This document shows, piece by piece, positions 1,717 through 56,450 of a stretch of 64,000 nucleotides of DNA. The stretch is from Lactobacillus crispatus (lineage in GTDB: Bacteria > Bacillota > Bacilli > Lactobacillales > Lactobacillaceae): contig NZ_CP072197.1 in NCBI RefSeq assembly GCF_018987235.1, forward strand, positions 2,175,090 to 2,239,089, written 5' to 3'. Within the stretch, counting starts at the first letter, position 1. Every line of letters begins with the position of its first letter. A model generated the notes under the pieces. That model was given only the letters and a program-made list of their open reading frames with translations, was not told the origin of the DNA and did not search any database. The translations under genes were made by a program, and so were the position numbers.

Positions 1717-2370
1717 CTAAATAAAACCTAACGCGTTATAGCACATGTGCACCAAAATTGAATAGCGCAAATCCTTGGTTGACATATAGACCCAAGCTAA
1801 AACCATGCCTAAGACCCAATATACTAAGATATACTTACTTAATGCCGGATCATGCATATAGCCAAATAAAAATCCGCTTGCAACAATACCTAGCCACTTA
1901 TTTCTAGTATTTTTCTTAGTGAAAAAGATATTGAAAAACATCCCTCTAAAGATATGTTCCTCACAAAATGGCGCGATGAAAACTACTAGGATCCTAAATA
2001 AACCTGCATTGTATTCCGCTATTTTATTCAAGCTTTCCTGGTTCTTTGAAACGCCGCCACCAACTAGATTAAGCATCACAATCGAACCTACTACAATCAG
2101 TACAAAACCGATCATCGCTATTCCGATTCTGCGCCAGTCCCAGTGTGGTGTTTCATCAAAGCCCCAATCATTTTCTTCTTTTAATTGCCTGCGATAAATA
2201 TAGGAAATTGCAAACAAAACTATTACCGTAGCAAGCGCCGTAACGAAGACGCGATATTGCCCCAAATCAAATCGCTGAGGTCTAAAGTAAAGTACTTCTA
2301 ATTCAGAATACATTACCAAAGCCAACACAGCCCCTGCAATATTTCCCAGGTAATGTCCAAATCTCTTCAT
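1717..2370 (-). CDS. CPBP family intramembrane metalloprotease
   Basis: A 217-aa polytopic membrane protein with about six hydrophobic segments. It carries the conserved CPBP (Abi/CAAX-like) motifs: EEHIFRG around residue 139, a second motif with GYMHDP near residue 170, and HMCYNALG near the C-terminus, which supply the catalytic Glu and the zinc-binding residues. In lactobacilli such proteins are linked to bacteriocin self-immunity or prenyl-protein processing; no bacteriocin gene is visible here, so the substrate is unknown. It is monocistronic, with a terminator at 1668-1707. An imperfect Noc-box-like sequence (2340-2355) lies in its first codons. Confidence 0.8.
   Translation of the reverse strand: MKRFGHYLGNIAGAVLALVMYSELEVLYFRPQRFDLGQYRVFVTALATVIVLFAISYIYRRQLKEENDWGFDETPHWDWRRIGIAMIGFVLIVVGSIVMLNLVGGGVSKNQESLNKIAEYNAGLFRILVVFIAPFCEEHIFRGMFFNIFFTKKNTRNKWLGIVASGFLFGYMHDPALSKYILVYWVLGMVLAWVYMSTKDLRYSILVHMCYNALGFI
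2340..2355. promoter_or_regulatory. Weak Noc-box-like sequence (13/16) in the CPBP gene
   Basis: TATTTCCCAGGTAATG lies in the first codons of the CPBP protease gene. It matches TATTTCCCGGGAAATA at 13 of 16 positions; coding constraint may contribute. Confidence 0.3.
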
Positions 2371-2417
2371 TTTTCATTCACACCTTGATTCTTTCAACTA
2401 GTAATCATTGTTTCTAT

Positions 2418-2423
2418 TATAAT
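2418..2423 (+). promoter_or_regulatory. Orphaned -10 element of the ydcF-like gene
   Basis: A perfect TATAAT lies about seven bases before the left end of the IS982 element. In the uninterrupted ancestor it would sit some 30 bp before the AAGGAGGAG ribosome binding site of the gene now starting at 3436, so the IS landed close to the transcription start and separated promoter from gene. No convincing -35 is visible. Confidence 0.5.
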
Positions 2424-2429
2424 GTAAAT

Positions 2430-3394
2430 ACGCGTGGTGCTAGTTAAATCTTTCTAGACAATAAGCCAAATTATAAGCTAAAATTGCAATTTCCAACCGG
2501 CTTTGAAAGCCTATCAGACTACGTGCTCGATTGTTCTCGGCATTGTAATAGGTCAGAAGCGAAAAGTCGCTTTCAATTGTTCTGCGAATAGCCATCAATT
2601 GATGATCATTGTGCTTTTTAGCTCCTGTCATATTTTTACGATATGGTGTCCAAAGTTCATAACCCATTTGTTTTAGCTGTTGATGCAGTTCTTTGCCTAA
2701 ATAGCCTTCGTCGCCAAGAAGATAGTAATTAGATGGATGTGCATTTTCCATCAGTTCAACTGTCTCCTTGGCATCATGAACTGATGCTTTTGTTACGACA
2801 TAATCAAGAATGTAACCGTCATCGCTAACAATGGCATGAACTTTGAAACCATAGAAGTAAATTTTCTTGGTGGCCTTATAACCAATGTTGGCATAACCGC
2901 GAAAAATTTTAGCACGATAGTTGCGAATTGGTTGGCAAACAGGTACCGGAAAGCTGTCAATGATCAAGAAATGTCCATTCAGGTCAACCTTTTTATTCAT
3001 TTCTTGCCGTATCTGATAAATCAATTGCAATAGCTGACGTGAACGCCGATTAAAACGTGAGTGTGATAAACAATTGAAACATTCACAGAATCTTCTTTGT
3101 GATTCAATTCCTGTCTTAGCTTGCCAGATAAGTAAAGCCAAAATCAGACTGTCCGTAGTTTTAATTTGATCAATATTTCGCCGATGAGTAAACTCAGCCG
3201 GTGCATACAAACGATACCAGTGCCGACAAATTATCACTAAATCTTTAAAACTAACTTGTAAATGGTGGCTAAAACGCTTAAGCTTAAGGCAGTTCAATCA
3301 GATCAGACTCTTTTCTATTATTACTATTTACAAGTCGAGTCTAACAAGATTGGACTTTTTTATTAACTAAAACGATTTAACTAGCACCACGCGT
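2430..3394 (-). mobile_element. IS982-family insertion sequence, complete
   Basis: A 965-bp element bounded by perfect 21-bp terminal inverted repeats (ACGCGTGGTGCTAGTTAAAT at the left, its complement at 3375-3394). It is flanked by a 9-bp target duplication AATGTAAAT (2421-2429 and 3395-3403); if the ends are taken one base further in, the duplication reads as 11 bp. The single transposase fills most of it, and its stop codon lies inside the left inverted repeat. Intact ends, an intact transposase and an undecayed duplication indicate recent insertion. Confidence 0.93.
2440..3297 (-). CDS. IS982-family DDE transposase
   Basis: A 285-aa transposase. The N-terminal 100 residues are helical and DNA-binding; the catalytic domain shows a first Asp in FLIIDSFPVPV (about residue 112), a second Asp in LLGDEGYLG (about 193) and the Glu in RRTIESDFS (about 238), the DDE triad of the IS982 family. 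The likely initiation codon is TTG at 3297. No frameshift is needed for expression, so the element could be active. The gene faces away from the ydcF-like gene it has separated from its promoter. Confidence 0.9.
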   Translation of the reverse strand: MNCLKLKRFSHHLQVSFKDLVIICRHWYRLYAPAEFTHRRNIDQIKTTDSLILALLIWQAKTGIESQRRFCECFNCLSHSRFNRRSRQLLQLIYQIRQEMNKKVDLNGHFLIIDSFPVPVCQPIRNYRAKIFRGYANIGYKATKKIYFYGFKVHAIVSDDGYILDYVVTKASVHDAKETVELMENAHPSNYYLLGDEGYLGKELHQQLKQMGYELWTPYRKNMTGAKKHNDHQLMAIRRTIESDFSLLTYYNAENNRARSLIGFQSRLEIAILAYNLAYCLERFN

Positions 3395-3435
3395 AATGTA
3401 AATAAGAAAAAATACCTAAGGAGGAGTATCTATCT

Positions 3436-4543
3436 ATGCTTAATCAGATCATCGCTTTTTTGGGGAGACGCGGTGAGTTCTTCTACATTTCAGTCTTTAT
3501 GTTACTGATATTTTTTGTCTTTTTAATCTCTTGGCTTATCGAACCAAGACGTTTGATTAATGGCGTTTTGTTTACTATCTTTATAGTCTCAATGCTCTCT
3601 TGGATCACCGTTATGGTGCACAAAAGTACGAGTCACGGCTTGCAACGTGCCTATGACCTACTAGTTCTAGCTGCATTATTTTGCATTGTCTTATTATTAA
3701 TTTTCGCCTGGATTTTTCTATTCTGGAATGCCTATTTCGTTTGGAAATATGAAAGCCATACTTTGCCTAACTTGCTTACTTTAATTACCGGATTTTTAGC
3801 ATTAATTATTAGTATTATCGTGCTCTTAGGACCAGGTAAGTACTTGCCACGTTGGCTTAGTCTCGCATTAGCTTCAATTCCCGCGATTGCAATTTATTTG
3901 GGATTGGTGCTTTATTTACAACTTTTTGGTAAACTTACTTCTATATCAAATTTATCCTCGTACCTACCACCAAGACTATTTAATCGTTCTAGGGGCTGGG
4001 CTAATCAATGGCGACCAAGTATCAAAACTGCTTGCGGCTAGAATTAATCGAGCAATTCAATACTCTAACCGCCAGTATCAAAAGGGCCGCAAGCGCCCTA
4101 TCCTGATCATGTCAGGTGGTCAAGGCGCTGACGAAAAAATCTCTGAAGCACTCGCTATGTCTCGTTTTGCACAACGGCGTGGCGTTAGTGTTGACCGTAT
4201 CTTATTAGAAGATCAATCGAAAAACACATACGAAAACATGCTCTTTTCTAAGCGTATTGCCACAAAAGATTTTGGTAATTCCCACTTCAAGGCACGCTTC
4301 TTTAGCAATAATTACCATATTTTTAGAGCTGCTCTCTTGGCTAAGGAAGTTGGTTTAAAAGCCAATGGTGTCGGTGCTTACACCAGATTCTACTACTTGC
4401 CTAACGCAATTATCCGCGAATTTGCCGGTGTGTTTGTCATGCATAAACGCCGTCATTTCGTTATCATGGGATTAATCGTTTTATTCTTTATCCTGCAAGC
4501 TATCTTAGTCATGACAGGATTAGAAAGATTTACTGTAATTTAG
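3436..4543 (+). pseudogene. YdcF family (DUF218) membrane protein, frameshifted
   Basis: The N-terminal part (3436 to about 3920) encodes about five membrane segments. The C-terminal part (in another frame from about 3925 to 4543) carries the DUF218 core: IVLGAGLINGDQVSKLLAAR, IMSGGQGADEKISEALAM and a SNNYHIFRAALLA segment, then a last membrane helix. Joining the frames near 3912-3930, by removing one base in the TTTATTTAC region, restores a single 368-aa protein of normal family length. The start has a strong AAGGAGGAG site. The IS982 element separates it from its promoter, so the gene is probably silenced twice. A sequencing error at the T-rich spot cannot be excluded. The role of YdcF proteins is poorly defined (envelope or S-adenosylmethionine-related). 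Confidence 0.8.
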
Positions 4544-7003: not shown

Positions 7004-9742
7004 ATGACTGTTAAAAAATTAGAAAATAACAGCGATGTTAATGTAGTGGCAGAAGAAAGCAAAGTTTTAACTGATTTACTGAATGAATCAACTAAGCAAG
7101 TAATCGGTCAAGCAGCTTTCGATAAGATCCAAAACTTAATTAAAATCTCTGCCGCCAAAGATTATCAAGAACTTGAAAAGCAAATTGCTAGTCTTAACAA
7201 TCGCGAAATGATTGTTGTTGCACGTTATTTTGCTACTCTCCCACTCTTGATCAACATTTCAGAGGATGTAGAACTAGCAAGTAAAGTTAATGTGCTTAAC
7301 AATACTCATCAAGATTATCTAGGTAAATTGAGTGACACAATTGACATTGTAGCCCAAAAGAAAAATGCCGAAGAAATCCTTGAACATGTAAATGTAGTAC
7401 CCGTTTTAACTGCCCATCCTACTCAAGTACAAAGAAAAACCATTTTGGAATTAACCGATCAAATTCATCAACTTTTGCGCAATTATCGTGATGTGAAGAA
7501 TGGCACAATTGATCGCGATGAATGGACTGAACAAATGCGGGCTTGCATTGAAATTTTGATGCAAACTGACATTATTCGTGGTCACAAATTAAAGGTAGCT
7601 AATGAAATTACCAATGTTTTGGCTTACTACCCTAAGGCTTTAATCCCTGCAATCACCAAATTTACTAGTCGTTACAAGGAATTAGCTAAAAAACACGGGC
7701 TAAACGCTAGTCATGCTACGCCAATTACCATGGGAATGTGGATCGGCGGCGACCGTGACGGTAACCCTTATGTAACGGCTGATACGCTAGAACTAAGCGC
7801 TACTTTGCAAAGCCAAGTAATCTTTGAATATTACATTAAGCAAATCAATAAGCTTTATAGAGCCATTTCCATGTCTACTTCTTATATGGAGCCATCTGAC
7901 GATGTAATGCACCTATCTGAGCTTTCTAATGATGATTCACCATTCAGAACTAACGAGCCATATAGACGGGCATTCTACTATATTCAAAGCCGTTTAGTGC
8001 ACACTGAACAAAAATTACTGAATATTACTAACAAGAACACTTTCTTAAAGAAACGTGACCTCCAAAATCTTGATAAAATCCCTTGTTATCAAAATGCTCA
8101 AGAATTTAAAGCCGACTTAGAAATCATCAAAAATTCACTTGAAGAAGACCATGATCACGCCGTAGTAGACAGCTACTTTACTCAAATTCTTGAGGCTATC
8201 AACATCTTCGGCTTCCATCTAGCTACAATTGATATGCGTCAAGATTCTAGCGTTAACGAGGCCTGTGTCGCTGAGCTACTTAAGAGTGCTGGAATTTGTG
8301 ACAATTATAGCGATTTAAGCGAAGACAAAAAGATCAAGCTTTTACTCAACGAATTGAACAATGATCCACGTAACTTACACGCCAATAACAAACCCAAGTC
8401 TGAGTTACTACAAAAAGAATTAAAGATCTACAAGACTGCTCGTCAATTGAAAGACCGTTTGGGTGAAGACGTCATCAAGCAACATATTATTTCTCACACT
8501 GAGAGTGTTTCAGACATGCTAGAACAAGCAATCATGTTAAAGGAATACGATTTACTTGATAATCAAAAAGCCCGAATTCAAGTGGTACCACTATTTGAAA
8601 CGGTTGAAGACTTGAATAATGCCCGGGAAATAATCAAGGAATTCTTAAGCTTTGATATCGTCAAGAAGTGGCTTGTTTCTCAAAATAATTATCAAGAAGT
8701 TATGCTAGGCTACTCAGATTCTAATAAGGACGGTGGCTACTTAGCTTCATGCTGGAACCTTTATAAAGCTCAAAAGGATCTAACTAAGATCGGTGAAGAA
8801 ATGGGTATCAAGATTACCTTTATGCATGGCCGTGGCGGTACCGTTGGTCGTGGTGGTGGTCCATCATACGAAGCAATTACAGCACAGCCATTCAAGTCAA
8901 TTAACGATCGGATGCGGATGACTGAGCAAGGTGAAATTATCCAAAACAAGTATGGTAATAAAGACACCGCCTACTACAACCTAGAAATGTTAGCTTCAGC
9001 AACAATCGATCGAATGGCTTCTAAGCAAATTGTTAGCGAAGATCATGTCGCAGATTTCCGTTCTTCAATGGATCAAATCGTAGCTAAAAGCAACGAAGTT
9101 TATCGGAAACTAGTATTTGAGAATCCCAACTTCCTTAAATACTTCTTCCAAGCAACTCCAATCAAAGAAATCTCTGGTCTTAACGTAGGATCACGTCCAG
9201 CTTCAAGAAAGAAACTCACTGACTTTTCTGGCTTAAGAGCCATCCCTTGGGTTTTCTCTTGGTCACAAAGCCGAGTAATGTTCCCTGGTTGGTATGGTGT
9301 AGGTTCTGGTTTCAAATCATTCATCGATGCCGATCCAGCCAACTTGAAGGAATTACAAAATATGTACCAAGGTTGGCCATTCTTCCACTCCCTGCTTTCC
9401 AATGTTGATATGGTTTTATCTAAATCAAATATGAGAATTGCCAAGCAGTATGCGGATCTTTGCGAAGATGAACAAATTAAATCAGTCTTTGATATCATCA
9501 ATCAAGAATGGGAACTAACTAAGAAAGTCATCCTACAAATTGAAGGTCATGATGAATTAATCGAAGATGCACCTACTCTTAAGAAGAGTCTGGAATACAG
9601 AATGCCTTACTTCAACATTTTGAACTACATTCAATTAGAAATGATCAAACGTGATCGTGAAGATGAGATTCAAGGTGTTTACCAAAGTATAATTCCTATT
9701 ACTATCAACGGTGTGGCTTCCGGTTTACGTAATTCAGGATAA
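7004..9742 (+). CDS. ppc: Phosphoenolpyruvate carboxylase
   Basis: A 912-aa cytosolic enzyme that carboxylates PEP with bicarbonate to oxaloacetate plus phosphate. In lactobacilli, which lack a full TCA cycle, it supplies aspartate and other oxaloacetate-derived compounds. The conserved sites are present: catalytic His-138 in [23 protein letters not shown], the [16 protein letters not shown] segment, the glycine-rich [13 protein letters not shown] loop and [16 protein letters not shown] residues near 750. Length matches the family. The ATG follows an AGAAAGGAA site. It is monocistronic and ends at a strong terminator. A weak Noc-box-like palindrome lies inside at 8617-8632. Confidence 0.95.
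8617..8632. promoter_or_regulatory. Weak Noc-box-like palindrome inside ppc
   Basis: TAATGCCCGGGAAATA matches the Noc-binding consensus TATTTCCCGGGAAATA at 14 of 16 positions. It lies within a coding sequence, so amino acid constraint may account for part of the match. Listed as part of the dispersed set. Confidence 0.35.
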
Positions 9743-9833: not shown

Positions 9834-10439
9834 TTACGCCTTTTTCATAACTAAGTTAAGTGGCGTTACAATTACTGGAACGACAATAGCTGTAAAAATT
9901 GCTTCTACTAAACCGTTCATGCCCAGTGCCATAATTAAAATTAAAATCAATGGCGTACCTGAACTATAATTTCCTAGGTAATGAGTTAAGCTTGCTGGAT
10001 CATGCATGAAGAAAATACTCGTCAGCAAAATAACCATCACGGTATTAGTTAACGAAGTGACTGCTCCACTTATGATATAACCCAATTTCGCATATTTAGT
10101 CTTACTCATACCCTTCGCAATAATTCCCGGGAAATAGCCAGCCAAAATACTTGGTACCAATGAAATTACCGGATTTTGGAACAACATTAAGCTGACCATA
10201 TCGCCAGGTTGAGTATATGCAACAATCAATCTGGTAATACCCCAGAATAAGCCAAAGCCTAGACCCGCCTTTTGTCCCATTAACGTGCCATAGACGGCAA
10301 TTGTCATTGGAATAGTAGTTACAGCTGGCAAAGCCGGGATAATTCTTACATAGCCAACATTTGGCACAAAAGTCTGTACAATCAATAAAGCAGCAAAGAC
10401 AGCAGTAATTGCTAATCTTTTAGTTTCTTCTCTTCTCAT
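9834..10439 (-). CDS. ECF transporter substrate-binding (S) component
   Basis: A 201-aa integral membrane protein with about six hydrophobic helices, matching the size and layout of S components of energy-coupling factor vitamin transporters, which share a common ATPase/T module encoded elsewhere. The N-terminal MRREETKRLAITAVFAALLI contains the conserved helix-1 region used to dock the T subunit. Substrate cannot be read from the sequence; pantothenate-type (PanT) or another B vitamin are candidates. I chose the ATG at 10439 because TTGGAG lies six bases upstream; the TTG at 10451 would overlap that site. A strong Noc-box-like palindrome lies inside at 10121-10136. Confidence 0.82.
   Translation of the reverse strand: MRREETKRLAITAVFAALLIVQTFVPNVGYVRIIPALPAVTTIPMTIAVYGTLMGQKAGLGFGLFWGITRLIVAYTQPGDMVSLMLFQNPVISLVPSILAGYFPGIIAKGMSKTKYAKLGYIISGAVTSLTNTVMVILLTSIFFMHDPASLTHYLGNYSSGTPLILILIMALGMNGLVEAIFTAIVVPVIVTPLNLVMKKA
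10121..10136. promoter_or_regulatory. Noc-box-like palindrome (15/16)
   Basis: TAATTCCCGGGAAATA differs from the published Noc-binding consensus TATTTCCCGGGAAATA at one position. It lies inside the ECF S-component gene. Binding is inferred from sequence only. Confidence 0.55.
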
Positions 10440-16788: not shown

Positions 16789-16822
16789 AAAAGGCTGTTT
16801 CACATGAAACAGCCTTTTATTT
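16789..16822 (+). terminator. Terminator of the nucleoside transport operon
   Basis: AAGGCTGTTTCA pairs with TGAAACAGCCTT around a two-base centre, followed by TTTTATTTT. The upper stem coincides with the parS-like palindrome annotated at 16796-16811. Confidence 0.85.
16796..16811 (+). promoter_or_regulatory. parS-like site (15/16)
   Basis: TGTTTCACATGAAACA differs from the parS consensus TGTTNCACGTGAAACA by one central base. The same 14-mer core, GTTTCACATGAAAC, recurs at 43243-43256 and, inverted, at 53998-54011. Here it is also part of a terminator stem, which by itself would explain the symmetry; the recurrence elsewhere without a terminator argues for a second role. Confidence 0.55.
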
Positions 16823-28497: not shown

Positions 28498-28541
28498 AAA
28501 AACATTCAATTTGCATACGAATGCATTTTGAATGTTTTTTG
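28498..28541 (+). terminator. Terminator of the kinase operon
   Basis: AACATTCAATTTGCAT pairs with ATGCATTTTGAATGTT and a run of six T residues follows. Confidence 0.85.
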
Positions 28542-28609
28542 TTTACAGTGAATTCTTCGCTTTATTCTTGTATAATTTGAAAAAGGTTGTGTTTAAAGGA
28601 GGAGTTTTT

Positions 28610-29068
28610 ATGTTATCAACCGTAACTGGTGGACAATGGTTTTTCCCACTTATCATAGTTTGCTTAATTTTGGGCATTGTCGCAATCATCGCTCAAAAGA
28701 AAAAGTTAACTAAACTAAAAAGAATAACCGATAACTTTGCCTATACAATATTAGTTATCCTCTTAATCATCGAATGGATTCTATATTTTAAAAAACAATT
28801 TGATTTTGTTACTCCAGCAATCTATACCACCATTATTGTCTATCTTCTTGGACGGCAATTATTATCCAAATATCGCTCTTCACTATTGAAAAAATTAGGA
28901 AGCAAATATAAGCAACTGACAATTGGACTTGCTACTATTTATATTCTCCTGGTTGCCCTATTACTTTTAATTGGATCTAAATTTTCAACTTTGGGCTGGA
29001 TCATTGCTGGGTTAGTTATCATAATCTTTAGCTTCGCTAGCTATATCATCGAAAAAGCCAAACAATAA
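28610..29068 (+). CDS. Small multi-pass membrane protein, unknown function
   Basis: A 152-aa protein with about five predicted membrane helices (residues roughly 10-28, 42-58, 68-84, 104-124, 128-145) and short basic loops. The start is ATG 28610, with AAAGGAGG (28596-28603) at ideal spacing; an upstream extension to 28532 would run through the preceding terminator. A TATAAT at 28571-28576 may be its -10. I do not recognise a functional motif; small DUF3397-like proteins look similar. It is monocistronic between two terminators. Confidence 0.7.
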   Translation: MLSTVTGGQWFFPLIIVCLILGIVAIIAQKKKLTKLKRITDNFAYTILVILLIIEWILYFKKQFDFVTPAIYTTIIVYLLGRQLLSKYRSSLLKKLGSKYKQLTIGLATIYILLVALLLLIGSKFSTLGWIIAGLVIIIFSFASYIIEKAKQ

Positions 29069-29082
29069 TTTCCCAGGAAATA
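29067..29082. promoter_or_regulatory. Noc-box-like palindrome (14/16)
   Basis: AATTTCCCAGGAAATA; the inner 14-mer ATTTCCCAGGAAAT differs from ATTTCCCGGGAAAT by one central base. It starts at the last base of the stop codon of the membrane-protein gene and precedes the terminator. Confidence 0.55.
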
Positions 29083-29917: not shown

Positions 29918-30145
29918 TCTTTCACCTTTATTTCTTTTTTAATTCTTATATCCTAGGATAATGCTTTATTTATGCTAATGAAAGCTGATTCAATTAAATG
30001 CTTTTCCTATCATTTAAAGATAAATTGCAATAAATGCCCAAGTAATGATTAAAATAATTCGCGTTTACAAATTTATTTATCAATGCTAAAGTATAAGAGT
30101 TGTGTTCAAGAAGTTAAAACACGAACAATATTTTGGGGAGATAAA

Positions 30146-31453
30146 ATGAATTTTATAAAAAGCTACTTTCAATTAGATAAGTACAAAACCAACATTCGAA
30201 CTGAATTTATTGCTGGTTTAACTACCTTTATCAGCATGTCCTATATTTTGTTTGTTAACCCTAGCGTACTGGGCGCCAGCGGTATGAATACCGGTGCAGT
30301 CTTCACCGCTACTGCTTTAGCTGCCGCTCTTGGTACTGCAATCATGGGGATCGTTGCCAACTACCCGATCGGTGAGGCACCAGCTTTGGGAATCAATGCC
30401 TTCTTTGCTTACACCGTATGTATTGGGATGCATGTTTCATGGGAAACAGCCTTGGCTTCAGTTTTCGTTGCATCAATTATTTTCATCTTAATTACTTTAT
30501 TCAAATTAAGAGAAAAGATCATTGATTCAATTCCAGCTGACTTAAAGTTTGCCATTTCTTCTGGGATCGGCTTATTCATTGCCTTTTTAGGTTTACAAAA
30601 TGGTAAATTGATCGTTGCTAATAAATCAACTTTGGTAGGTTTAGGATCATTACACGATCCCCTCGTTTGGATCACTATCTTTGGTTTGCTAGTAACTGTC
30701 ATTTTGATGATCTTGAACGTTCCTGGTGCAATCTTTATCGGAATGGTTCTTGCCGCTATCTTCGGGATCTGCACTGGGCAAATTGCATTGCCACACAAGG
30801 TGATTTCTACCGCACCTAGCTTAGCTCCAACCTTTGGTCAAGCTATTTTCCACGTAAAGGACATCAACTCCGTGCAAATGTGGGTTGTTGTCTTAACATT
30901 CCTGCTTGTTACTTTCTTCGATACTGCAGGTACCTTAATCGGACTTGCTCAACAAGCTGGTTTCATGAAGAACAACAAGATGCCACGTGTAGGTAAGGCC
31001 TTAGCAGCTGACTCAAGTGCGATGGCTGTTGGTTCAATCCTTGGTACTTCACCTGTTGGTGCCTTCGTTGAATCAAGTGCTGGTATCGCCGTTGGTGGCC
31101 GTACCGGTTTAACCGCAGTTTTTGTAGCGATCTTTTTCTTAATCTCAATGATTTTCAGTCCATTGCTTGGTGTTTTCACTAGCCAAGTTACTGCTCCTGC
31201 CTTAATCATTGTTGGAGTATTAATGGCACAAAATACTGCTCATATTCATTGGAACAAGTTGGAAATTGCAGTTCCTGCATTCTTGATTATTTTAGGGATG
31301 CCTCTTACTTACTCAATTTCAGACGGTTTATCATGGGGCATGATCACCTACCCTATCTGTATGCTTGCTGCTAAGCGTGGCAAGGAAGTCACACCGATGA
31401 TGTGGGTACTGTTTGTAGTATTCCTGATCTTCCTGTGGGTGTTGAATTTTTAA
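30146..31453 (+). CDS. NCS2-family purine permease, paralogue 1
   Basis: A 435-aa AzgA-type nucleobase:cation symporter of the NCS2 family, with 12-14 hydrophobic segments. Characteristic stretches are FIAGLTTFISMSYILFVNP at the N-terminus, ALGINAFFAYT (helix 3), and TFFDTAGTLIGLAQQAG with SPVGAFVESSAGIAVGGRTG in the substrate-binding half. AzgA-like members transport adenine, hypoxanthine and guanine. The ATG at 30146 follows GGGGAG; an upstream in-frame start at 30083 has no site. Two full-length paralogues lie at 35480 and 41868. No purine riboswitch could be recognised upstream. Confidence 0.9.
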   Translation: MNFIKSYFQLDKYKTNIRTEFIAGLTTFISMSYILFVNPSVLGASGMNTGAVFTATALAAALGTAIMGIVANYPIGEAPALGINAFFAYTVCIGMHVSWETALASVFVASIIFILITLFKLREKIIDSIPADLKFAISSGIGLFIAFLGLQNGKLIVANKSTLVGLGSLHDPLVWITIFGLLVTVILMILNVPGAIFIGMVLAAIFGICTGQIALPHKVISTAPSLAPTFGQAIFHVKDINSVQMWVVVLTFLLVTFFDTAGTLIGLAQQAGFMKNNKMPRVGKALAADSSAMAVGSILGTSPVGAFVESSAGIAVGGRTGLTAVFVAIFFLISMIFSPLLGVFTSQVTAPALIIVGVLMAQNTAHIHWNKLEIAVPAFLIILGMPLTYSISDGLSWGMITYPICMLAAKRGKEVTPMMWVLFVVFLIFLWVLNF

Positions 31454-34554: not shown

Positions 34555-34570
34555 CATTCCCCAGGAAATA
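34555..34570. promoter_or_regulatory. Noc-box-like palindrome (13/16)
   Basis: CATTCCCCAGGAAATA lies in the 50-bp gap between two convergent genes. It is one of the weaker matches to TATTTCCCGGGAAATA, but intergenic. Confidence 0.4.
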
Positions 34571-35479: not shown

Positions 35480-36790
35480 ATGAATTCTATCAGCAAGTTT
35501 TTTCATCTAAAAGAGAACAATACCTCTTTTAAAACAGAATTATTGGCTGGTCTTACTACTTTTGTAAGTATGTCATACATTCTGTTCGTTAACCCAAACG
35601 TCCTAGGTGCCAGCGGTATGGATAAAGGTGCTCTATTCACCGTTACTGCATTGTCGGCTGCCTTTACCTGTATCGTAATGGGGCTTATCGCTAACTACCC
35701 AATTGCTTCCGCACCAACTTTGGGCTTAAACGCCTTCTTTACCTATACTGTTTGTTTAGGCATGAAGGTTAAGTGGCAAACTGCTTTAGCAGCTGTTTTC
35801 GTTGCATCAATTCTGTTCATTTTGTTAACTGTCTTTAAGGTACGTGAAATGATCATTGATGCCATCCCTGCCGATATTAAATATGCTATTTCCGCAGGTA
35901 TCGGCTTATTCATCGCCTTTATCGGTTTGCAAGGTGGTAAGTTGATTCAAAACAGTGATTCTACCTTAGTTACTATTGGTAGTCTCAACAACCCTACTGT
36001 TTGGATCACTATCTTTGGTTTAATCATTACTATTTTCTTAATGATTGCCAGAGTTCCAGGTGCCATCTTCATCGGAATGATCGCCGCTGCTGTTTTTGGC
36101 ATAGTGACTGGTCAAATTCCCATGCCTAAAGGCGTTATCTCTTCAGTTCCAAGCATTGCTCCAACTTTTGGTCAAGCAGTCTTCCATATTGGCGATATTA
36201 ATACCGTTCAAATGTGGATCGTTGTCTTTACATTCTTACTTGTTACTTTCTTTGATACCACTGGTACCTTAATTGGTTTGGTTCAACAAGCAGGTCTGAT
36301 GAAGGACAACAAGATGCCACGTGCTGGTGAAGCTCTAGCAGCTGATTCCAGTGGTATGTTGGTCGGTTCTGTTCTTGGTACCTCACCTGTCGGTGCCTTC
36401 GTTGAATCAAGTTCTGGTATCGCTGTTGGTGGTCGTACCGGTTTAACTGCCGTTTGGGTTGGTATTTTCTTCCTTATTTCAACTATCTTCAGTCCAATTT
36501 TGAGTGTTTTCACTACCCAAGTTACAGCACCCGCTTTAATTATTGTTGGGGTATTAATGGCCGAAAACTTGGCACACGTTCACTGGACTAATCTTGAAAT
36601 TGCCATCCCATGTTTCTTAATCGCATTGGGAATGCCTCTTACATACTCTATTTCAGACGGACTTGGCTGGGGTTTGATTGTCTACCCTGTATCAATGATC
36701 GCAGCCAAGCGTTTCAAAGAAATCACGCCAATGATGTGGATTTTGTTTATTGTTTTCGTAATCTACTTCGTTGTGCTGAATGTAAAATAA
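35480..36790 (+). CDS. NCS2-family purine permease, paralogue 2
   Basis: A 436-aa AzgA-like nucleobase permease, similar over its full length to the copies at 30146 and 41868: LLAGLTTFVSMSYILFVNP, TLGLNAFFTYTVCLG, TFFDTTGTLIGLVQQAG, SPVGAFVESSSGIAVGGRTG. The polytopic membrane topology (12-14 segments) is intact and all presumed substrate residues are retained, so it should be functional. TATGGAGGAA precedes the ATG. Divergent from the MerR-type gene. Confidence 0.9.
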   Translation: MNSISKFFHLKENNTSFKTELLAGLTTFVSMSYILFVNPNVLGASGMDKGALFTVTALSAAFTCIVMGLIANYPIASAPTLGLNAFFTYTVCLGMKVKWQTALAAVFVASILFILLTVFKVREMIIDAIPADIKYAISAGIGLFIAFIGLQGGKLIQNSDSTLVTIGSLNNPTVWITIFGLIITIFLMIARVPGAIFIGMIAAAVFGIVTGQIPMPKGVISSVPSIAPTFGQAVFHIGDINTVQMWIVVFTFLLVTFFDTTGTLIGLVQQAGLMKDNKMPRAGEALAADSSGMLVGSVLGTSPVGAFVESSSGIAVGGRTGLTAVWVGIFFLISTIFSPILSVFTTQVTAPALIIVGVLMAENLAHVHWTNLEIAIPCFLIALGMPLTYSISDGLGWGLIVYPVSMIAAKRFKEITPMMWILFIVFVIYFVVLNVK

Positions 36791-41763: not shown

Positions 41764-41779
41764 TATTTCCCAGGAAATA
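41764..41779. promoter_or_regulatory. Noc-box-like palindrome (15/16)
   Basis: TATTTCCCAGGAAATA differs from TATTTCCCGGGAAATA by one central base. It is intergenic, between the divergent HAD and NCS2 genes; the symmetry continues one further base on each side. Confidence 0.6.
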
Positions 41780-41867: not shown

Positions 41868-43178
41868 ATGCAGACATTGGAAAAAGTCTTTCATTTACAA
41901 GATGCTCATACCACTGTTAAACGTGAGTTAATCGCTGCTTTAACCACTTTTGTCAGTCTCTCCTACATCTTATTCGTTAACCCAAACATTTTGCACGCAG
42001 CTGGTATCCCTAAAGGTGCCGCTTTTACTGTAACAGCTCTTGCCACAGCAGTTGGGTGTTTTTTAATGGGTTTTATTGCTAATTATCCGATTGCCTTAGC
42101 TCCAACCTTAGGTAGCGGTGCCTTTTTCGCTTATAACGTATGTGTTGGGATGCATATTTCTTGGGAAACAGCTTTGGCTGCAGTCCTTGTTGCTTCAGTT
42201 TTATTCATTTTAATTACTGTCTTTAAATTACGCGAATTAGTGGTTAATGCCATTCCACAAGATATGAAGTATGCTATTTCAGCAGGAATTGGGTTATTCA
42301 TCGCTTTTATCGGTTTAAAAAATGGTCAATTAATTGTTAACAGTGACTCAACCTTAGTTACTTTAGGAAAATTTAGCACCCCAGCAGTTTGGATCACATT
42401 ATTTGGCTTAATTTTGACTGTTGTATTAATGGCATTAAACGTGCCTGGTTCTATCTTTATTGGAATGATTGTTACTGCCATCTTCGGTATGATCATTGGT
42501 CAAATTCCATTACCACATAACATCGTTTCTGGTGCCCCAAGTATTGCACCAACCTTCGGCCAAGCTGTCTTCCATATTAAAGACATTAATACCGCTCAAC
42601 TTTGGATGGTTGTACTAACTTTCCTGCTGGTTACTTTCTTTGATACTGCTGGTACTTTGATTGGCATGACTGAACAAGCTGGCATGGTTGATAAAAACGG
42701 TAAGATTCCACGGATCGGTCGTGCCTTTTTAGCTGACTCTACTGCCATGGTTGAAGGTGCAGTCTTTGGTACTGCCCCACTTGGTACTTCTGTCGAATCA
42801 AGTGCCGGAATTGCCATGGGTGGTCGTACTGGTTTGACTGCTATCTTTGTTGGTATTTTCTTCATTATCAGTATGATTTTCAGCCCATTGTTACAAGTAA
42901 TTCCAACTACTGTAACGGCTCCTGCTTTAATTATCGTTGGTGTACTGATGGCCAGCAACTTAAAGAAAATCGATTGGGAAAGGTTCGAAATTGCCTTTCC
43001 TGCTTTTCTTACCGTTGTAGGGATGCCACTGACTTACTCAATTTCAGATGGTTTGGCATTAGGCTTGATTGCCTACCCAATTACCATGATTGCTTCTAAG
43101 CGTTATAAGGAAGTTAGTCCAATGATGTATATCTTGTTTGTGGTGTTTGTCATCTTCTTCTTGGTGACGAATTTATAA
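41868..43178 (+). CDS. NCS2-family purine permease, paralogue 3
   Basis: A 436-aa AzgA-like permease, the most divergent of the three: IAALTTFVSLSYILFVNP at the start, TLGSGAFFAYNVCVG where the others have LGINAFF/LGLNAFF, and TAPLGTSVESSAGIAMGGRTG. The Asn-to-Gly/Ser and Pro-Val-Gly-Ala-Phe to Pro-Leu-Gly-Thr-Ser changes fall in regions predicted to line the transport path, so its substrate may differ (inference). ACGGAGGAA precedes the ATG. Confidence 0.9.
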   Translation: MQTLEKVFHLQDAHTTVKRELIAALTTFVSLSYILFVNPNILHAAGIPKGAAFTVTALATAVGCFLMGFIANYPIALAPTLGSGAFFAYNVCVGMHISWETALAAVLVASVLFILITVFKLRELVVNAIPQDMKYAISAGIGLFIAFIGLKNGQLIVNSDSTLVTLGKFSTPAVWITLFGLILTVVLMALNVPGSIFIGMIVTAIFGMIIGQIPLPHNIVSGAPSIAPTFGQAVFHIKDINTAQLWMVVLTFLLVTFFDTAGTLIGMTEQAGMVDKNGKIPRIGRAFLADSTAMVEGAVFGTAPLGTSVESSAGIAMGGRTGLTAIFVGIFFIISMIFSPLLQVIPTTVTAPALIIVGVLMASNLKKIDWERFEIAFPAFLTVVGMPLTYSISDGLALGLIAYPITMIASKRYKEVSPMMYILFVVFVIFFLVTNL

Positions 43179-43241: not shown

Positions 43242-43257
43242 AGTTTCACATGAAACA
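43242..43257 (+). promoter_or_regulatory. parS-like site (14/16)
   Basis: AGTTTCACATGAAACA contains the same GTTTCACATGAAAC core found at 16797 and 53998. It lies in a short intergenic gap and is not part of a terminator. Confidence 0.55.
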
Positions 43258-44706: not shown

Positions 44707-46646
44707 TGAAACTTTCAAACATTAAGCGCTTCTGGATCTCATTTATTCTAGCTATTCCAATGCTAATCCAGATGTTCGCCATGCCCTTTCACTGGATGAT
44801 GCCAGGCTATAATTGGATCGCTTTTATCACGACTACAATCATTATGGCGATTTCCGCTGCCCCTTACTGGAGCAGTGCTTGGGCCGCTTTTAAACACCAT
44901 AACGCTAATATGAACACATTAGTAGCCGTCGGTACTTCTGTAGCTTACTTTTACAGTATCTTTGCTATGTTTACTGGACGTGAAGTCTACTTTGAAAGTG
45001 CTGCTTTCGTCACCGTCTTCGTTTTGCTCGGGGATGCAATGGAAGAAAAGATGCACAATAATGCCTCGAATGCTTTAGCTAAACTAATTGATCTGCAAGC
45101 TAAAGATGCTGAAGTTGAACGTGATGGCAAATTCATTAAGTTGCCACTAGATCAAGTTAAAGTTGGTGACATCATTCGCGTTAAGCCTGGTGAAAAAGTC
45201 CCTGTAGATGGCGTGATTGTTGACGGTTCATCGACTCTTGATGAATCAATGGTTACGGGTGAAAGTATGCCAGTTACTAAGAAAAAAGGCGACGATGTTG
45301 TTGGCTCAACCATCAATACTAATGGGACTTTTACCTTCAAAGCAACTAAGGTCGGTAGTGACACGATGCTTTCGCAGATTGTTGATTTAGTTAAAAAAGC
45401 TCAAACCAGCCATGCGCCGATTCAAAACCTAACTGATAAAATATCTAATATCTTTGTCCCAGTTGTTTTAATCATTGCAATTCTGACTTTCGTTATCTGG
45501 TACGTCTTCTTAGGTGCAACATTAGTTAGCGCCATGCTCTTTGCCGTCTCAGTGGTTGTTATTGCTTGTCCTTGTGCGCTAGGTTTAGCTACTCCAACTG
45601 CCTTAATGGTCGGTACAGCACGTAGCGCCAAGATGGGCGTTTTAATCAAGAACGGTGAAGTCCTCGAAGAAGTTAGCGACATCGATACCGTTGTATTTGA
45701 CAAGACTGGTACGATTACCGTTGGCAAGCCACAAGTTACTAATGTTGTAGGTGATAAAAACAAGGTCTTAACTATTGCAGCTAGTTTGGAAGAAAATTCT
45801 GAGCACCCACTAGCAACTGCCGTAGTTAAAACAGCACAAGAAGCCAATATTACAATTAAGCCTGTCAAAAACTTTGCAGCTATTGAAGGCCGCGGAGTTA
45901 AGGCAAACTATGGCAATCAAGAAGCTTTTGTTGGTAGCGATCGTTTATTAGAAGATATTTCTATTTCCCAGGAAATGAAAGATCAGGCTCTCCAACTTCA
46001 AAAAGAAGCAAAAACTGTAGTCTATGTTGGCCTAGGTAATGACATCATTGGCTTAATTGCCATTCAAGATGTACCTAAAGCAAGTTCTAAGCAAGCAATT
46101 GCGGAACTTAAAAAGCGTGGTTTAAAGACGGTGATGCTTACCGGTGATAACCAAAATGTTGCCGAAGCTATTGGCCGTGAAGTCGGAATTGATCAAGTTA
46201 TAGCAGGCGTTCTGCCAACTGAAAAAGCTACTGAGATCAAGAAACTACAAAATGAAGGCAATAAAGTGGCCTTTGTCGGTGATGGTATTAACGACGCACC
46301 TGCACTGTCTACAGCTGATGTCGGCATCGCCATGGGATCAGGTACCGATATTGCTATTGAATCTGGTGGCATTGTTCTCGTTCAAAATGACTTAATGGGC
46401 GTAGTTAGAGCGCTTGAGATCTCTAAGAAGACTTTCAACAGAATCAAATTAAACCTCTTCTGGGCTCTTATTTACAACACTATTGGTATTCCAATTGCAG
46501 CAGGTTTATTCATGGCCTTTGGTCTGCAGCTTAGTCCTGAACTTGCAGGTTTAGCTATGGCCTTCTCTTCTGTTTCTGTTGTAACTAGTTCACTTTTATT
46601 GAATAAAACAAAAATTGCTGGTGAAACAGCTCAAGTTTCAAAGTAA
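44706..46646 (+). CDS. copA: Copper-translocating P1B-type ATPase
   Basis: A 646-aa ATPase exporting Cu(I). It has eight membrane helices, the metal-translocation motif Cys288-Pro-Cys290 ([10 protein letters not shown]), the phosphorylated Asp-332 in DKTGT, the TGES actuator loop (TGESMPV about 180), HP motif in SEHPLA and the hinge [10 protein letters not shown]. It begins directly with a membrane helix, without HMA domains or a His-rich tail, which makes it a short CopA/CopB-like form. It is coupled to the cupredoxin gene (one-base overlap). Its 3' end overlaps the convergent Crp/Fnr gene by 9 bp. A Noc-box-like palindrome lies inside at 45962. Confidence 0.92.
45962..45977. promoter_or_regulatory. 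Noc-box-like palindrome inside the copper ATPase gene (14/16)
   Basis: TATTTCCCAGGAAATG; the inner 14 bases match ATTTCCCGGGAAAT except one central position. It encodes ISQE in the nucleotide-binding domain, a poorly conserved place where a DNA site could be tolerated. Confidence 0.45.
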
Positions 46647-47929: not shown

Positions 47930-47932
47930 GTT

Positions 47933-48054: not shown

Positions 48055-49419
48055 ATGGAGAATAACGAAAAAATTATCCAAGAAAAGAAACGCGAAAAAT
48101 TTATTAAAACTAAAAAGAATTACAAGCGTGCACCACTAATGTCAGTTCACTTAAGAGTGATGATGGCCGTTATCTTAGGTCAAATCGCCTGTGGCTATTC
48201 CCTGGGAATTAGTGGTACCGCTCTTTCTAATGCAGCTAAATATATCAACATTAGTGACTTCTGGACTGGATTAATTGGGGCTGGTGCTTTAATTGGCCTT
48301 GCTGGTAGTCTTTTGGTCGGTCGACTTTCTGATAAAATCGGTCGCCGTAAACTCTTAATGTGGAATATGTATATATTAGCTGCTTTTTCTTTATTACATC
48401 TAATAACCGCTAATTTTAGCTTAACCTTTATCCTCCGTATTGGAATTGGTTTAATGATTGCTGTTGACTATACTGTAGGGAATGCCTTGTTAACCGAATG
48501 GCTACCTAAGGGTGAAGACAGCAAGCGCCAGAGTCATTTATTAATCTACTGGACTATTGGTTTTATTTTGTCTTACCTAGCTGGTAGTTTTATCACTGGA
48601 TTTGATAGTTATACTTGGCAAATAATCTTAGCAACAAGTGCAGTACCTGCACTAGTAACTGCTATCTTCAGAAGTCTTTTCCCACTCCCTGCTTCACCAG
48701 GCTGGCTAGCAAGTAAGGGTAAGATTAAGACGGCCAACAAGGTCATTCGTAAGCACATGGGACGCAAATGGAGATTACCTGCCCGCTTTATGAAGCGGAA
48801 TAAAAAGAAAACGCCTAGAAATATTTCCTGGGCAATTTTATTTTCCAAGCAATATCTGCGACGTACTCTAGTAGGTGGGGTTTTCTATGCCTGCCAAGCC
48901 TTCTCATTTTTCGGTATTAGTATCTTCTTGCCAATTTTATTACAAAGCATGAATATCACTAGTGGAAATATCTCAGGAATTATCTACAATGGTGGGATGT
49001 TCATTGGTGTGCTAATCGGTACCTGGATCTTTAACAAGGTTAGCCGCCGCTTCTATCTTATCAGTAATTTTCTAATCTCAGGTCTGCTAATCGGCATTTT
49101 AGCAATAGTACCTAACTTAAATTCAATACTTAAATTAGGTATTTTTACGTTATTTGCGATTATTTTATCAGCTGGTTTGATCCTAGATTATCCTTATCCG
49201 ACTGAATTATTTGATCTGAAGGTACGAGCAACTGGTGTAGGTACTTGTATTACAATCAGCCGAATCGGGGCTGCCGCAGGGACTTTCTTATTGCCCGTCT
49301 TAACTAATGTGGGTGGTGCTAGCCTGGCAATGCTAGTTTGTGCGATTGTTTTACTCTTTGCCTTTATCGTTTGCCTCATCTGGGCACCGGAGACCTCACC
49401 CCAATTTATGAAAAAATAA
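48055..49419 (+). CDS. MFS transporter, sugar-porter-like
   Basis: A 454-aa major facilitator protein with 12 membrane helices and a basic N-terminal tail of about 30 residues (IIQEKKREKFIKTKKNYKR). The loop 2-3 motif GRLSDKIGRRKLLM (about 99-112) is the MFS signature; a loop of about 50 residues separates the two halves. The pattern is that of the sugar porter or metabolite:H+ symporter families. The substrate is unknown. Translation initiation is unusual (see the leader). It is monocistronic. Confidence 0.85.
   Translation: MENNEKIIQEKKREKFIKTKKNYKRAPLMSVHLRVMMAVILGQIACGYSLGISGTALSNAAKYINISDFWTGLIGAGALIGLAGSLLVGRLSDKIGRRKLLMWNMYILAAFSLLHLITANFSLTFILRIGIGLMIAVDYTVGNALLTEWLPKGEDSKRQSHLLIYWTIGFILSYLAGSFITGFDSYTWQIILATSAVPALVTAIFRSLFPLPASPGWLASKGKIKTANKVIRKHMGRKWRLPARFMKRNKKKTPRNISWAILFSKQYLRRTLVGGVFYACQAFSFFGISIFLPILLQSMNITSGNISGIIYNGGMFIGVLIGTWIFNKVSRRFYLISNFLISGLLIGILAIVPNLNSILKLGIFTLFAIILSAGLILDYPYPTELFDLKVRATGVGTCITISRIGAAAGTFLLPVLTNVGGASLAMLVCAIVLLFAFIVCLIWAPETSPQFMKK
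48822..48837. promoter_or_regulatory. Weak Noc-box-like sequence (13/16) in the MFS gene
   Basis: TATTTCCTGGGCAATT resembles TATTTCCCGGGAAATA imperfectly, within a coding region; included for completeness of the set. Confidence 0.25.
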
Positions 49420-53961: not shown

Positions 53962-53997
53962 TAAAAAGCCAGCTAGAATTGTTCTAACTGACCTTTT
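53962..53997 (-). terminator. Terminator of gnd
   Basis: On minus, AAAAGGTCAGTTAGAA pairs with TTCTAGCTGGCTTTT (two mismatches), followed by T residues. Confidence 0.7.
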
Positions 53998-54012
53998 GTT
54001 TCATGTGAAACT
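53997..54012 (-). promoter_or_regulatory. parS-like site (14/16), inverted
   Basis: TGTTTCATGTGAAACT; its complement is AGTTTCACATGAAACA, identical to the site at 43242-43257. It sits just after the gnd stop codon, next to but not within the terminator stem. Confidence 0.55.
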
Positions 54013-54014
54013 AA

Positions 54015-55418
54015 TTATTTTTCTTCATACCATTCGGTGTGGAAGACGCCTTCACGATCATTTCTAAGGTAAGTGTGCGCACCGAAGTAGTCACGTTGTC
54101 CTTGGATCATATTAGCTGGCAAGTTTGGATTAAAGATTGATTCCAACCAGTTAAGAGCTGCGCTCAAAGTTGGAGTTGGCACACCACACTTAGTAGCAAA
54201 CTCAACTGATTTACGCAAAGCTGGCAAGTTTTCCTTCATCAAGCCGCGGAAATAATCGTCTTGGAATAGGTTCATTAGCTTGCCGTTCTTGTCATAGGCT
54301 TTTTCAATATCCTTAAGCATTGCGGAACGAATGATACAACCTGCTTCCCAATCTTGAGCAATTGACTTGTATCTTAAGTCCCAATCATAAGCTTCAGCAG
54401 CCATTGTCAATTGTTGGAAACCTTGAGCATAGGCAACAGCTTGGGCTAATTGCAATGATTTTTCGAATACGTCAACCATATCATCAGGAATTTCACCATT
54501 GTATTCAAACTTAGTTGGTTTAACGCCCTTTTCAATTGTCAAGTGTGCTTGCTTACTCATGAAACGTGCCATTACAGCCTCGGCTACCACCGTTACAGGA
54601 GCGCCAAGTGCAACACCATCTTCGAGCATCCAGTTACCAGTACCTTTGTATGAAGCAACGTTCAAAATGTGATCGATTACGTGATCTGGCGTTAAATCAT
54701 CTTTTTGTGCCAAAACCTTTGAAGTGATTTCGCTAAGATATGCTTCTACCTTACCATGATTCCATTTATCAAAAATTTCTGACATTTCATCATCGCTCTT
54801 GTGAGCAACGTCACGGAGTAAGTTGTAAACTTCTGAAAATTCCTGCATAATACCGTATTCGATACCATTGTGCACCATTTTGACATAGTGACCAGCACCT
54901 TCAGGTCCCATGTAGTAGACACATGGCTTGCCTTCAGTATTCTTAGCGGCAATAGCTTCAAGAATTGGAGCAACTTCCTTATAGGCTGGTTCATCACCAC
55001 CTGGCATCAAAGCTGGACCATTCAAGGCACCCTCTTCACCACCGGAAACACCCATACCAATAAAATGAATGCCGTGCTTTTCCATTTCGTGGAAACGACG
55101 GTTAGTATCGTGATAATTTGAGTTACCACCATCGATTAAAATATCGCCTTTATCCAAAAGCGGCAGCAATTTTTGCAAAGTTTGGTCCACTGGATCGCCT
55201 GCCATAATTTGAATCAAAATCTTGCGTGGCTTTTCAAGTGAGTTTACGAACTCTTCCCAGGTGTAGCAAGGCTTTAATTTATCATCTTCATATTTTGCGA
55301 AAGCATCAACTTCAGGTTTATCAATTGAGAAACCTGATACGGAGAAGCCGTGATTTCTAACATTCAAAGCAAGGTTTTTGCCCATAACAGACAAACCGAT
55401 AACGCCGAATTGTTGCAT
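54015..55418 (-). CDS. gnd: 6-phosphogluconate dehydrogenase, decarboxylating
   Basis: A 467-aa cytosolic enzyme oxidising 6-phosphogluconate to ribulose-5-phosphate, CO2 and NADPH in the oxidative pentose phosphate route. The Rossmann start is FGVIGLSVMGKNLALNVRNHG, with GLSVMG in place of the more common GLAVMG. IDGGNSNY, GMGVSGGEEGALNGPALMPGG (catalytic loop), and MVHNGIEYGIMQ with the catalytic Lys just before follow. The C-terminal helical domain ends with QRDYFGAHTYLRND...FHTEW. I start at ATG 55418, with GGAGGAA upstream; the ATG at 55436 overlaps that site. Monocistronic. Confidence 0.95.
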   Translation of the reverse strand: MQQFGVIGLSVMGKNLALNVRNHGFSVSGFSIDKPEVDAFAKYEDDKLKPCYTWEEFVNSLEKPRKILIQIMAGDPVDQTLQKLLPLLDKGDILIDGGNSNYHDTNRRFHEMEKHGIHFIGMGVSGGEEGALNGPALMPGGDEPAYKEVAPILEAIAAKNTEGKPCVYYMGPEGAGHYVKMVHNGIEYGIMQEFSEVYNLLRDVAHKSDDEMSEIFDKWNHGKVEAYLSEITSKVLAQKDDLTPDHVIDHILNVASYKGTGNWMLEDGVALGAPVTVVAEAVMARFMSKQAHLTIEKGVKPTKFEYNGEIPDDMVDVFEKSLQLAQAVAYAQGFQQLTMAAEAYDWDLRYKSIAQDWEAGCIIRSAMLKDIEKAYDKNGKLMNLFQDDYFRGLMKENLPALRKSVEFATKCGVPTPTLSAALNWLESIFNPNLPANMIQGQRDYFGAHTYLRNDREGVFHTEWYEEK

Positions 55419-55476
55419 GTTTAATAATTCCTCCATTAATCAAAATTCATCAAGTATTATTATACGTTCTAGCACG

Positions 55477-55506
55477 CAAAAAAGCGAAACCAAATGGTTC
55501 CACTTT
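55477..55506 (-). terminator. Terminator after the frameshifted exported protein gene
   Basis: On minus, AAGTGGAACC pairs with GGTTTCGCTT (two mismatches) and a T-run follows. Confidence 0.65.
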
Positions 55507-55567
55507 TCAATTCCGCTTAATAATCTTTTTGTTATTGGGCAAAAATGTTTCACACTAGTTTTAGACT

Positions 55568-55583
55568 TATTTCCTAGGAAATA
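55568..55583. promoter_or_regulatory. Noc-box-like perfect palindrome (14/16)
   Basis: TATTTCCTAGGAAATA is a perfect palindrome, with the central CG of TATTTCCCGGGAAATA replaced by TA. It is intergenic, just after the end of the frameshifted exported protein gene. Confidence 0.5.
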
Positions 55584-55589
55584 TTGTTT

Positions 55590-56304
55590 CTATTGATCAA
55601 TTCCCCAGAGCAAGATATTAAAGGCTAATGGTAATGTTAGCTTGGTAATATACCCTTCCTTTTTGGCCTGCTTTAAAGATGCTAGAACGAATTTACGTTG
55701 TTGACCCTTTAGTTTTTGGGCTGCTTTAACAGCTAAATTAAAGTCATGCTTATTTTTTTCTAATTCTAGTAGCTCTAGCTTTTTTAGAAATCTTTTGCCA
55801 TTTATAAGTTGGAAATTGAGCGGTAGCTCTCTTGCTTATTCTGTTAAGTGGTTTAACTACTCCTTGAAGTGCTTTGCTATTAAAAGCACAGTATTGCATA
55901 CCAGGATTAGTAGTCCAGGTGCTATATTTGTTGTCTTTAGAAGTAATTAAATACATCAACGCACCGTTATGATGTTTAGCATATGCAATTTTTACCACTT
56001 TGAATTTAACATTCTTCACCTTTTTAGGACTGATAGTATTTCCACTTCTAAATTCAGAGTCATTTAGCATTTTTTGATAACTATCTTTGCCCACTGAAAT
56101 AGGTTGAGAATCGGAGTTTACAGTTACAATGTAGCCCCACTTGCTAAGTCGAGGAATATTTTTAATTGTTATAGCTTTATCAAACTTAGCTACTACAGTT
56201 GAATTGCTGTTGTCTGCAGCGTTGGCAGTGACAGATGATGCTGAAAATAATGCTGCAAGTGAAGCAGTAGCAAGTAAACTAATTAGAGCCTTTTTAGATT
56301 TCAT
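55590..56304 (-). pseudogene. Exported protein of unknown family, frameshifted near the end
   Basis: The intact N-terminal part (to stop at 55750) has a signal peptide (ALISLLATASLAALFSASSV, cleavage near ANAA) and a beta-rich region with ITIKNIPRLSKWGYIVTV. It then ends ISKKARATRIRKK. Shifting by one base near 55765-55800 gives instead WQKFLKKLELLELEKNKHDF and about 55 more well-formed residues (NLAVKAAQKLKGQQRKFVLA, ..., LPLAFNILLWGID) to a TAG at 55590. A one-base insertion in the AAGATTT region is the simplest explanation. The 184-aa truncated form may still be exported. Family unknown, but related to lactobacillar surface proteins by style. Confidence 0.7.
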
Positions 56305-56434
56305 AATTTAGCCTCTTTTTACACATAGCGCTTATTGGCTAATAAGCATTAATTCATATCCAACACTATCTATTATAAGCATCTGTATTTCATTTATTAG
56401 CTATCTATGTTTAAAATCATATATAAAATAAGGA

Positions 56435-56450
56435 TATTTCCCAAGAAATA
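56435..56450. promoter_or_regulatory. Noc-box-like palindrome (14/16)
   Basis: TATTTCCCAAGAAATA, with symmetry extending to the flanking bases (GATATTTC...GAAATATC). It is intergenic, between the exported protein gene and the pyruvate oxidase terminator. Confidence 0.5.

Follow-up and report, generated by a model that had tools for sequence, protein, structure and literature searches.

The nucleoid occlusion protein Noc is known mostly from Bacillus subtilis and Staphylococcus aureus, and its binding sites (Noc-binding sites, NBS) were reportedly defined in a 2009 study by Wu. Here we describe a family of dispersed palindromes in a 64 kb stretch of DNA (the window), which comprises bases 2,175,090-2,239,089 of a 2,239,089-base, single-contig Lactobacillus genome (completeness 99.92%). 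We predict, with a probability of about 0.93, that these palindromes are the NBS of this Lactobacillus, and the predicted sites extend the known Noc system to the genus. The sequence support consists of the site family itself, their crowding around the replication origin (oriC), to a distance of about 10% of the chromosome in each direction, a noc gene encoding the NBS-specificity residues, and the co-occurrence of sites and noc. For a further group, a Noc system is in this way readable from sequence; its sites occupy a tight origin zone, and their centre is shifted.

The closest described systems are characterized here from excerpts of the cited papers. The Noc/NBS system of B. subtilis resembles the present one in the arms of its sites (A1, C6), in the four specificity residues of the protein and in the depletion of sites at the terminus (PMC7383237, PMC4331003). 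The two differ in distribution: about 70 B. subtilis sites are spread round most of the chromosome (PMC4331003), whereas 30 of the 32 sites found here lie within 216 kb of oriC. They also differ in the centre of the site, which is CG in the B. subtilis consensus and mostly CA/TG here, and the N-terminal anchor is longer in four Bacillales-type Noc proteins than in the protein of this genome. In S. aureus, where the core consensus is identical to that of B. subtilis, chromatin immunoprecipitation (ChIP) yielded 41 Noc loci, 40 of them within 700 kb of the origin (PMC5540599). The present sites are similarly placed but occupy a tighter zone and have another centre. The excerpt of the same paper describes S. 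aureus as having no ParA counterpart, whereas here a ParA-family gene adjoins noc.

The Escherichia coli SlmA-binding sites are likewise dispersed palindromes, rarer at the terminus and involved in the timing of division; SlmA, however, is an unrelated TetR-family protein, which interacts directly with FtsZ (PMC4726725). The ParB-parS system shares with Noc a paralogous protein, origin-proximal palindromes and a CTP clamp. parS departs from NBS at positions 1 and 6 of the core (PMC7383237), and both kinds of site occur in the window.

The start of dnaA is base 22 of the contig, therefore the window is the 64 kb directly left of oriC. Its G+C content is 0.368, and the genome is described as AT-rich. 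An earlier note, made from the sequence alone, had listed ten palindromes resembling NBS; all ten were present, letter for letter, at the positions given, and five of them (29067, 34555, 41764, 55568, 56435) are intergenic in the mechanical list of open reading frames (ORFs), as the note had said. Two counted sites, 9968 (AATTTCCTAGGTAATG) and 48196, were absent from that list. Seven of the 12 counted sites lie inside ORFs and five between them; the site at 29067 overlaps the final two bases of ORF 28532-29068. The weak matches at 30433 and 42155 were left out of the count, as they sit on homologous codons of mutually aligning genes. The poor match at 48839 is also outside the 12 and is included below for its counterparts in relatives.

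2340..2355, unstranded, NBS-like palindrome TATTTCCCAGGTAATG in ORF 1717-2370, from pattern scans
8617..8632, unstranded, weak NBS-like palindrome TAATGCCCGGGAAATA within the PEP carboxylase gene
9968..9983, unstranded, NBS-like palindrome AATTTCCTAGGTAATG, from pattern scans
10121..10136, unstranded, predicted NBS TAATTCCCGGGAAATA with a CG centre, in the ECF transporter gene
29067..29082, unstranded, predicted NBS AATTTCCCAGGAAATA with 12/12 core arm bases matching, between convergent ORFs
34555..34570, unstranded, predicted NBS CATTCCCCAGGAAATA, intergenic
41764..41779, unstranded, predicted NBS TATTTCCCAGGAAATA with zero mismatches to TATTTCCYRGGAAATA, intergenic
45962..45977, unstranded, predicted NBS TATTTCCCAGGAAATG inside the P-type ATPase gene, 14-base core the same in two relatives
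48196..48211, unstranded, weak NBS-like palindrome TATTCCCTGGGAATTA within the gene of an MFS transporter, not retained in either aligning relative
48822..48837, unstranded, predicted NBS TATTTCCTGGGCAATT in the MFS transporter gene, not retained in either aligning relative
48839..48854, unstranded, poor match TATTTTCCAAGCAATA, aligned in G009 and G087 to a good site
55568..55583, unstranded, predicted NBS TATTTCCTAGGAAATA, upstream of the 6-phosphogluconate dehydrogenase gene by about 130 bp
56435..56450, unstranded, predicted NBS TATTTCCCAAGAAATA, intergenic

The sites have the palindromic arms ATTTCC/GGAAAT of NBS. Beyond the 16 bp the sequence next to the 12 counted sites holds little information, therefore the sites are not part of a longer repeat element. 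A scan of the window with ATTTCCCGGGAAAT at 12 or more of 14 positions returned 10 sites; 300 first-order Markov sequences averaged 0.23 and never exceeded 2, so the estimate of the earlier note, well below one such site in random DNA, was right. With TATTTCCCRGGAAATA and up to three mismatches we obtained 26 strand-matches, corresponding to 14 distinct places in the whole window (mean 1.78, maximum 5 in 100 shuffles). The looser pattern ATTTCCNNGGAAAT, allowed up to two mismatches, showed a smaller excess (16, compared with a mean of 5.26 and a largest value of 15).

The position of the terminus was estimated from GC skew, which was positive in all nine sampled stretches within bases 1-990,000 and negative in all eleven from 1,080,001 onward; the change of sign between 0.99 and 1.08 Mb places the terminus near 1.0-1.1 Mb. 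In the whole genome ATTTCCYRGGAAAT with at most one mismatch matched 32 sites, and the reversed pattern two. Apart from the 30 sites within 216 kb of oriC, one site lies at +360 kb and one at -493 kb; the scan found none between 0.36 and 1.74 Mb, thus the terminus is depleted. Finding 30 of 32 sites in 19% of the chromosome has a binomial p of about 1e-19, with the 216 kb bound chosen after the sites were known. With the 16-mer, 101 places matched at up to three mismatches (34 in the control): 36 of the 45 matches with at most two mismatches lie within 300 kb of oriC, and the 55 matches with three mismatches are far more dispersed along the genome.

A tight origin zone is usual in Lactobacillus and in genus g14, and so is not peculiar to the present genome. 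The zone reaching 10% of the chromosome length to the left and right of oriC held 46 of 56 exact sites in Lactobacillus (seven single-contig genomes out of 10 sampled). The same zone held 30 of 33 exact sites in six g14 genomes (of 16; lengths rounded), and 5 of 8 in one g36 genome (of 2; length rounded). For one g3 genome (of 2) the value was 8 of 16, for one of family f2 it was 2 of 6, and for one of g28 it was 3 of 4.

The earlier note had predicted a noc gene near rsmG and parA, and we found it at 2,061,960-2,062,736. The gene lies some 176 kb to the left of dnaA, and the local gene order is rsmG, noc, parA, parB. The rsmG product scored above the cut-off of its model, and the ParA-family gene matched several ParA models, all below their curated cut-offs. 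Noc scored 349 bits against TIGR04285 (curated cut-off 315), the paralogous ParB 244 bits, under the cut-off. The protein is 88% identical to Noc of an uncultured Lactobacillus sp. and 72-75% identical to those of three other Lactobacillus species, which places the genome in this genus. Four residues convert the preference of ParB to that of Noc (excerpt of PMC7383237); at these positions the present Noc has Q-K-K-R and the ParB paralogue R-Y-T-G, and 23 other Lactobacillales Noc proteins have Q, K, K or R, and R. By inspection, the CTP-clamp motifs GERR and ENLQRE are intact in the translation. The clamp residues R89 and N121 are taken from an excerpt of PMC8429893, and their placing as the GERR arginine and the ENLQRE asparagine is our own reading of the sequences.

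The N-terminus of Noc, MSLFSFMHHDDE (L001:2294-2328), is shorter than the Bacillus type; it retains hydrophobic residues and has no K or R. In B. subtilis Noc, according to the excerpt of PMC4331003, changes at K2, R7, F5 or F9 abolish peripheral localisation. The best hydrophobic moment of the Lactobacillus N-terminus was 0.41, compared with 0.57-0.69 in four Bacillales-type Noc proteins. Two proteins of family f8 gave 0.51-0.54, five other Lactobacillus proteins 0.37-0.56, and one g3 and one f2 Noc 0.29 each.

Co-occurrence of sites and noc was surveyed in 148 genomes of the order, of which 44 had a Noc over the cut-off and 103 had none; one genome, G102, was kept out of both groups. The 44 noc-positive genomes had 263 exact ATTTCCNNGGAAAT sites (mean 5.98), none of them had zero, and 40 had at least three. 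The 103 noc-negative genomes had 49 (mean 0.48), and not one reached three. The reversed-pattern control gave 10 (mean 0.23) and 32 (mean 0.31), respectively. At the genus level (10 genera with noc, 37 without, no mixed genus) the difference had a Mann-Whitney p of 3.5e-7, ignoring phylogeny. The association was also seen within families: in f1, 13 noc-positive genomes had 3-16 sites and five noc-negative genomes had 0, and in f2 the corresponding values were 1-11 sites in 12 genomes and 0-1 in five. A survey of 60 kb at noc in 12 Bacillales genomes gave 0-4 sites each, a sample too small to use. The excluded genome encodes a Noc-like protein (L100) of 299 bits, just below the cut-off, in which Q replaces the first specificity K; it has 4 exact sites.

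Uniform density including the terminus, equal numbers in shuffled sequence and absence of any noc/parB paralogue had been named by the earlier note as outcomes that speak against its proposal. The density proved uneven, shuffled and Markov sequences stayed far below the window count, and noc is present, with site presence following noc across the 148 genomes.

Conservation was assessed on the origin regions of four further genomes, three from Lactobacillus and one from another genus. At the DNA level nine of the 12 counted sites had no alignment in the relatives and three were aligned. G087 and G009 have the same 14-base core at 45962, with differences in the flanking codons; the retained core constitutes weak evidence, as these two genomes look closely related. 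Five codons at this site, one of them Met, are unchanged in both relatives, which is only suggestive of codon-level conservation, given that about 53% of identical residues keep their codon in those genomes. In the MFS gene, G009 and G087 carry a good site aligned to 48839, 17 bp downstream of the site at 48822, and the sites at 48822-48854 look like a case of binding-site turnover. Both relatives also have a site 129 bp from a 6-phosphogluconate dehydrogenase homologue, which matches 55568 by gene-anchored mapping. The homologue of ORF 1717-2370 in G040 holds a perfect 16-mer, a correspondence seen at the level of the gene.

Several observations weigh against the sites being NBS. Among the three aligned sites only one core was retained (45962) and two were not (48196, 48822). 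Four of the 45 16-mer matches with at most two mismatches are far from oriC (>800 kb), inside the 0.36-1.74 Mb interval. The centres of the 32 genome sites depart from the published CG consensus: five are CG, 20 CA/TG, three TA and four other, counted with a scan pattern that favours YR centres. The short N-terminus, without K2 and R7, makes membrane attachment of this Noc uncertain. Our literature search found no binding data for any Lactobacillus Noc.

Other explanations account for parts of the data. The palindromic form and the five intergenic sites of the 12 would also suit operators of an ordinary repressor active near the origin. We consider this very unlikely, because the host and neighbour genes are unrelated (PEP carboxylase, ECF transporter, P-type ATPase, MFS, 6-phosphogluconate dehydrogenase), seven of the sites are in ORFs, and the sites cluster by distance from oriC and co-occur with noc over the 148 genomes. 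Degenerate parS sites bound by ParB rather than Noc would explain the clustering near oriC, which is common to both site families, and the TTTC arms found in both motifs. However, the genome has a separate, smaller parS set (8 places with no more than two mismatches; 2 in the control), its ParB and Noc differ at the specificity positions, and the 103 noc-negative genomes, which match the Noc model below the cut-off as ParB does, include none with at least three sites; a parS origin of the palindromes is accordingly just as improbable. Least credible of all, and in our estimate close to negligible, are chance matches or an effect of base composition in the origin region. The AT-rich genome would favour such matches, and a few weaker sites (8617, 48196) could be of this kind, but the counts are far over those of shuffled sequences and of the reversed pattern, which had no match in the origin-flanking 104 kb of this genome, where 16 sites were found.

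If the palindromes are NBS, the sequence evidence supports that Noc dimers would nucleate on each of them. By analogy with B. subtilis, Noc would then close into CTP-dependent clamps and slide onto adjacent DNA (excerpt of PMC8429893), and the clamped DNA would be attached to the membrane by Noc (excerpt of PMC4331003). As in B. subtilis, the division ring would be kept off the origin-proximal nucleoid until the origins separate, and late in the cycle the scarcity of sites at the terminus would leave midcell open to division. The sites would work through their position and not as operators of host genes. Noc may in addition control replication initiation, a role described for S. aureus (excerpt of PMC5540599).

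The CG centre of the published consensus was not treated as defining NBS. The earlier note had suggested that the frequent CA/TG or TA centres reflect a lineage-specific Noc specificity. The difference in sequence is borne out: seven Lactobacillus genomes had CG centres at 4 of 56 exact sites, whereas in seven genomes from a different family 40 of 41 were CG. A changed Noc specificity may be the cause. A one-residue explanation failed. By group, CG centres made up 32/33 in g14, 8/8 in g36, 0/4 in g28, 6/16 in G064 of g3 and 3/6 in G111 of f2; in f2 genomes with F two residues after the specificity Q they were 3/46 (six sites in G018 and 40 in ten others). These counts take in only genomes whose sites were all listed; sites within genera share descent, and the independent lineages in the comparison are few. 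Background G+C was rejected as the cause in g14, where the noc loci have 0.372 (22.6 kb) and the window 0.368, yet CG centres are 32/33 versus 4/56. The G+C content of g36 was 0.42 in 40 kb.

The residue two positions after the specificity Q is Y in the 14 Lactobacillus proteins read. It is F in g3, g5 and all but one of the 12 f2 proteins (the exception, G111, has S), A in g14 and g36 of f8, and T in g28 and all 30 wider-class Noc loci fetched. This residue seemed at first to follow the centre type, but the idea that it sets the centre failed in small samples: G038 (T) had 0/4 exact CG centres, G102 (Y) 1/3 exact in 100 kb and G048 (F) 2/3 in 58 kb. The parS centres of 12 Bacillales-type genomes were CG in 23 of 25 cases, and the equivalent ParB residue was H in 8 of 9 read. 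The same idea is not claimed for ParB and parS: Lactobacillales ParB had Y where read, and the centres were mixed, CG included.

The centre difference is the part of the finding that may be new; among the open-licence titles listed, none dealt with it, and none with Noc sites in Lactobacillus, Listeria or Enterococcus. Tentatively, and at somewhat less than even odds, Noc specificity may have split within the order at the central base pair, which is outside positions 1 and 6 read by the four specificity residues. Some genera would have a near-strict CCCGGG core, and Lactobacillus and another family would prefer or tolerate CCCAGG and CCTAGG. With a reduced membrane anchor and a tight origin zone of sites besides, Noc of Lactobacillus may serve as a mark of the origin region more than of the nucleoid as a whole. 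Through its natural presences and absences the 148-genome table offers a way to test where in Noc the centre is determined and whether an origin-only site map suffices for nucleoid occlusion.

A scan of the window with the parS pattern gave the following sites.

16796..16811, unstranded, parS-like site TGTTTCACATGAAACA, presumed ParB site, not Noc
43242..43257, unstranded, parS-like site AGTTTCACATGAAACA, from the parS pattern scan
53997..54012, unstranded, parS-like site TGTTTCATGTGAAACT, 14-base core unchanged in G087 and G009

These three sites, and a weak one at 30433, interleave with the Noc sites, and the three have CA/TG centres, like most Noc sites of the window.

On the other side of oriC, a predicted Noc site (L068:4166) lies about 4.17 kb after dnaA in ORF 3116-4243, which is recF by position. 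The site is common to the present genome, where its centre is TG, and G040, where it is CG; the change alters the encoded residue and the arms stay. A site of G038 at an almost equal coordinate was taken as a coincidence, being outside the homologous gene order of that genome.

The window ORFs 30083-31453, 35480-36790 and 41868-43178 have homologues in the relatives that overlap one another, and the three are probably paralogues. ORF 41868-43178, the only one of them scanned, encodes a xanthine/uracil permease.

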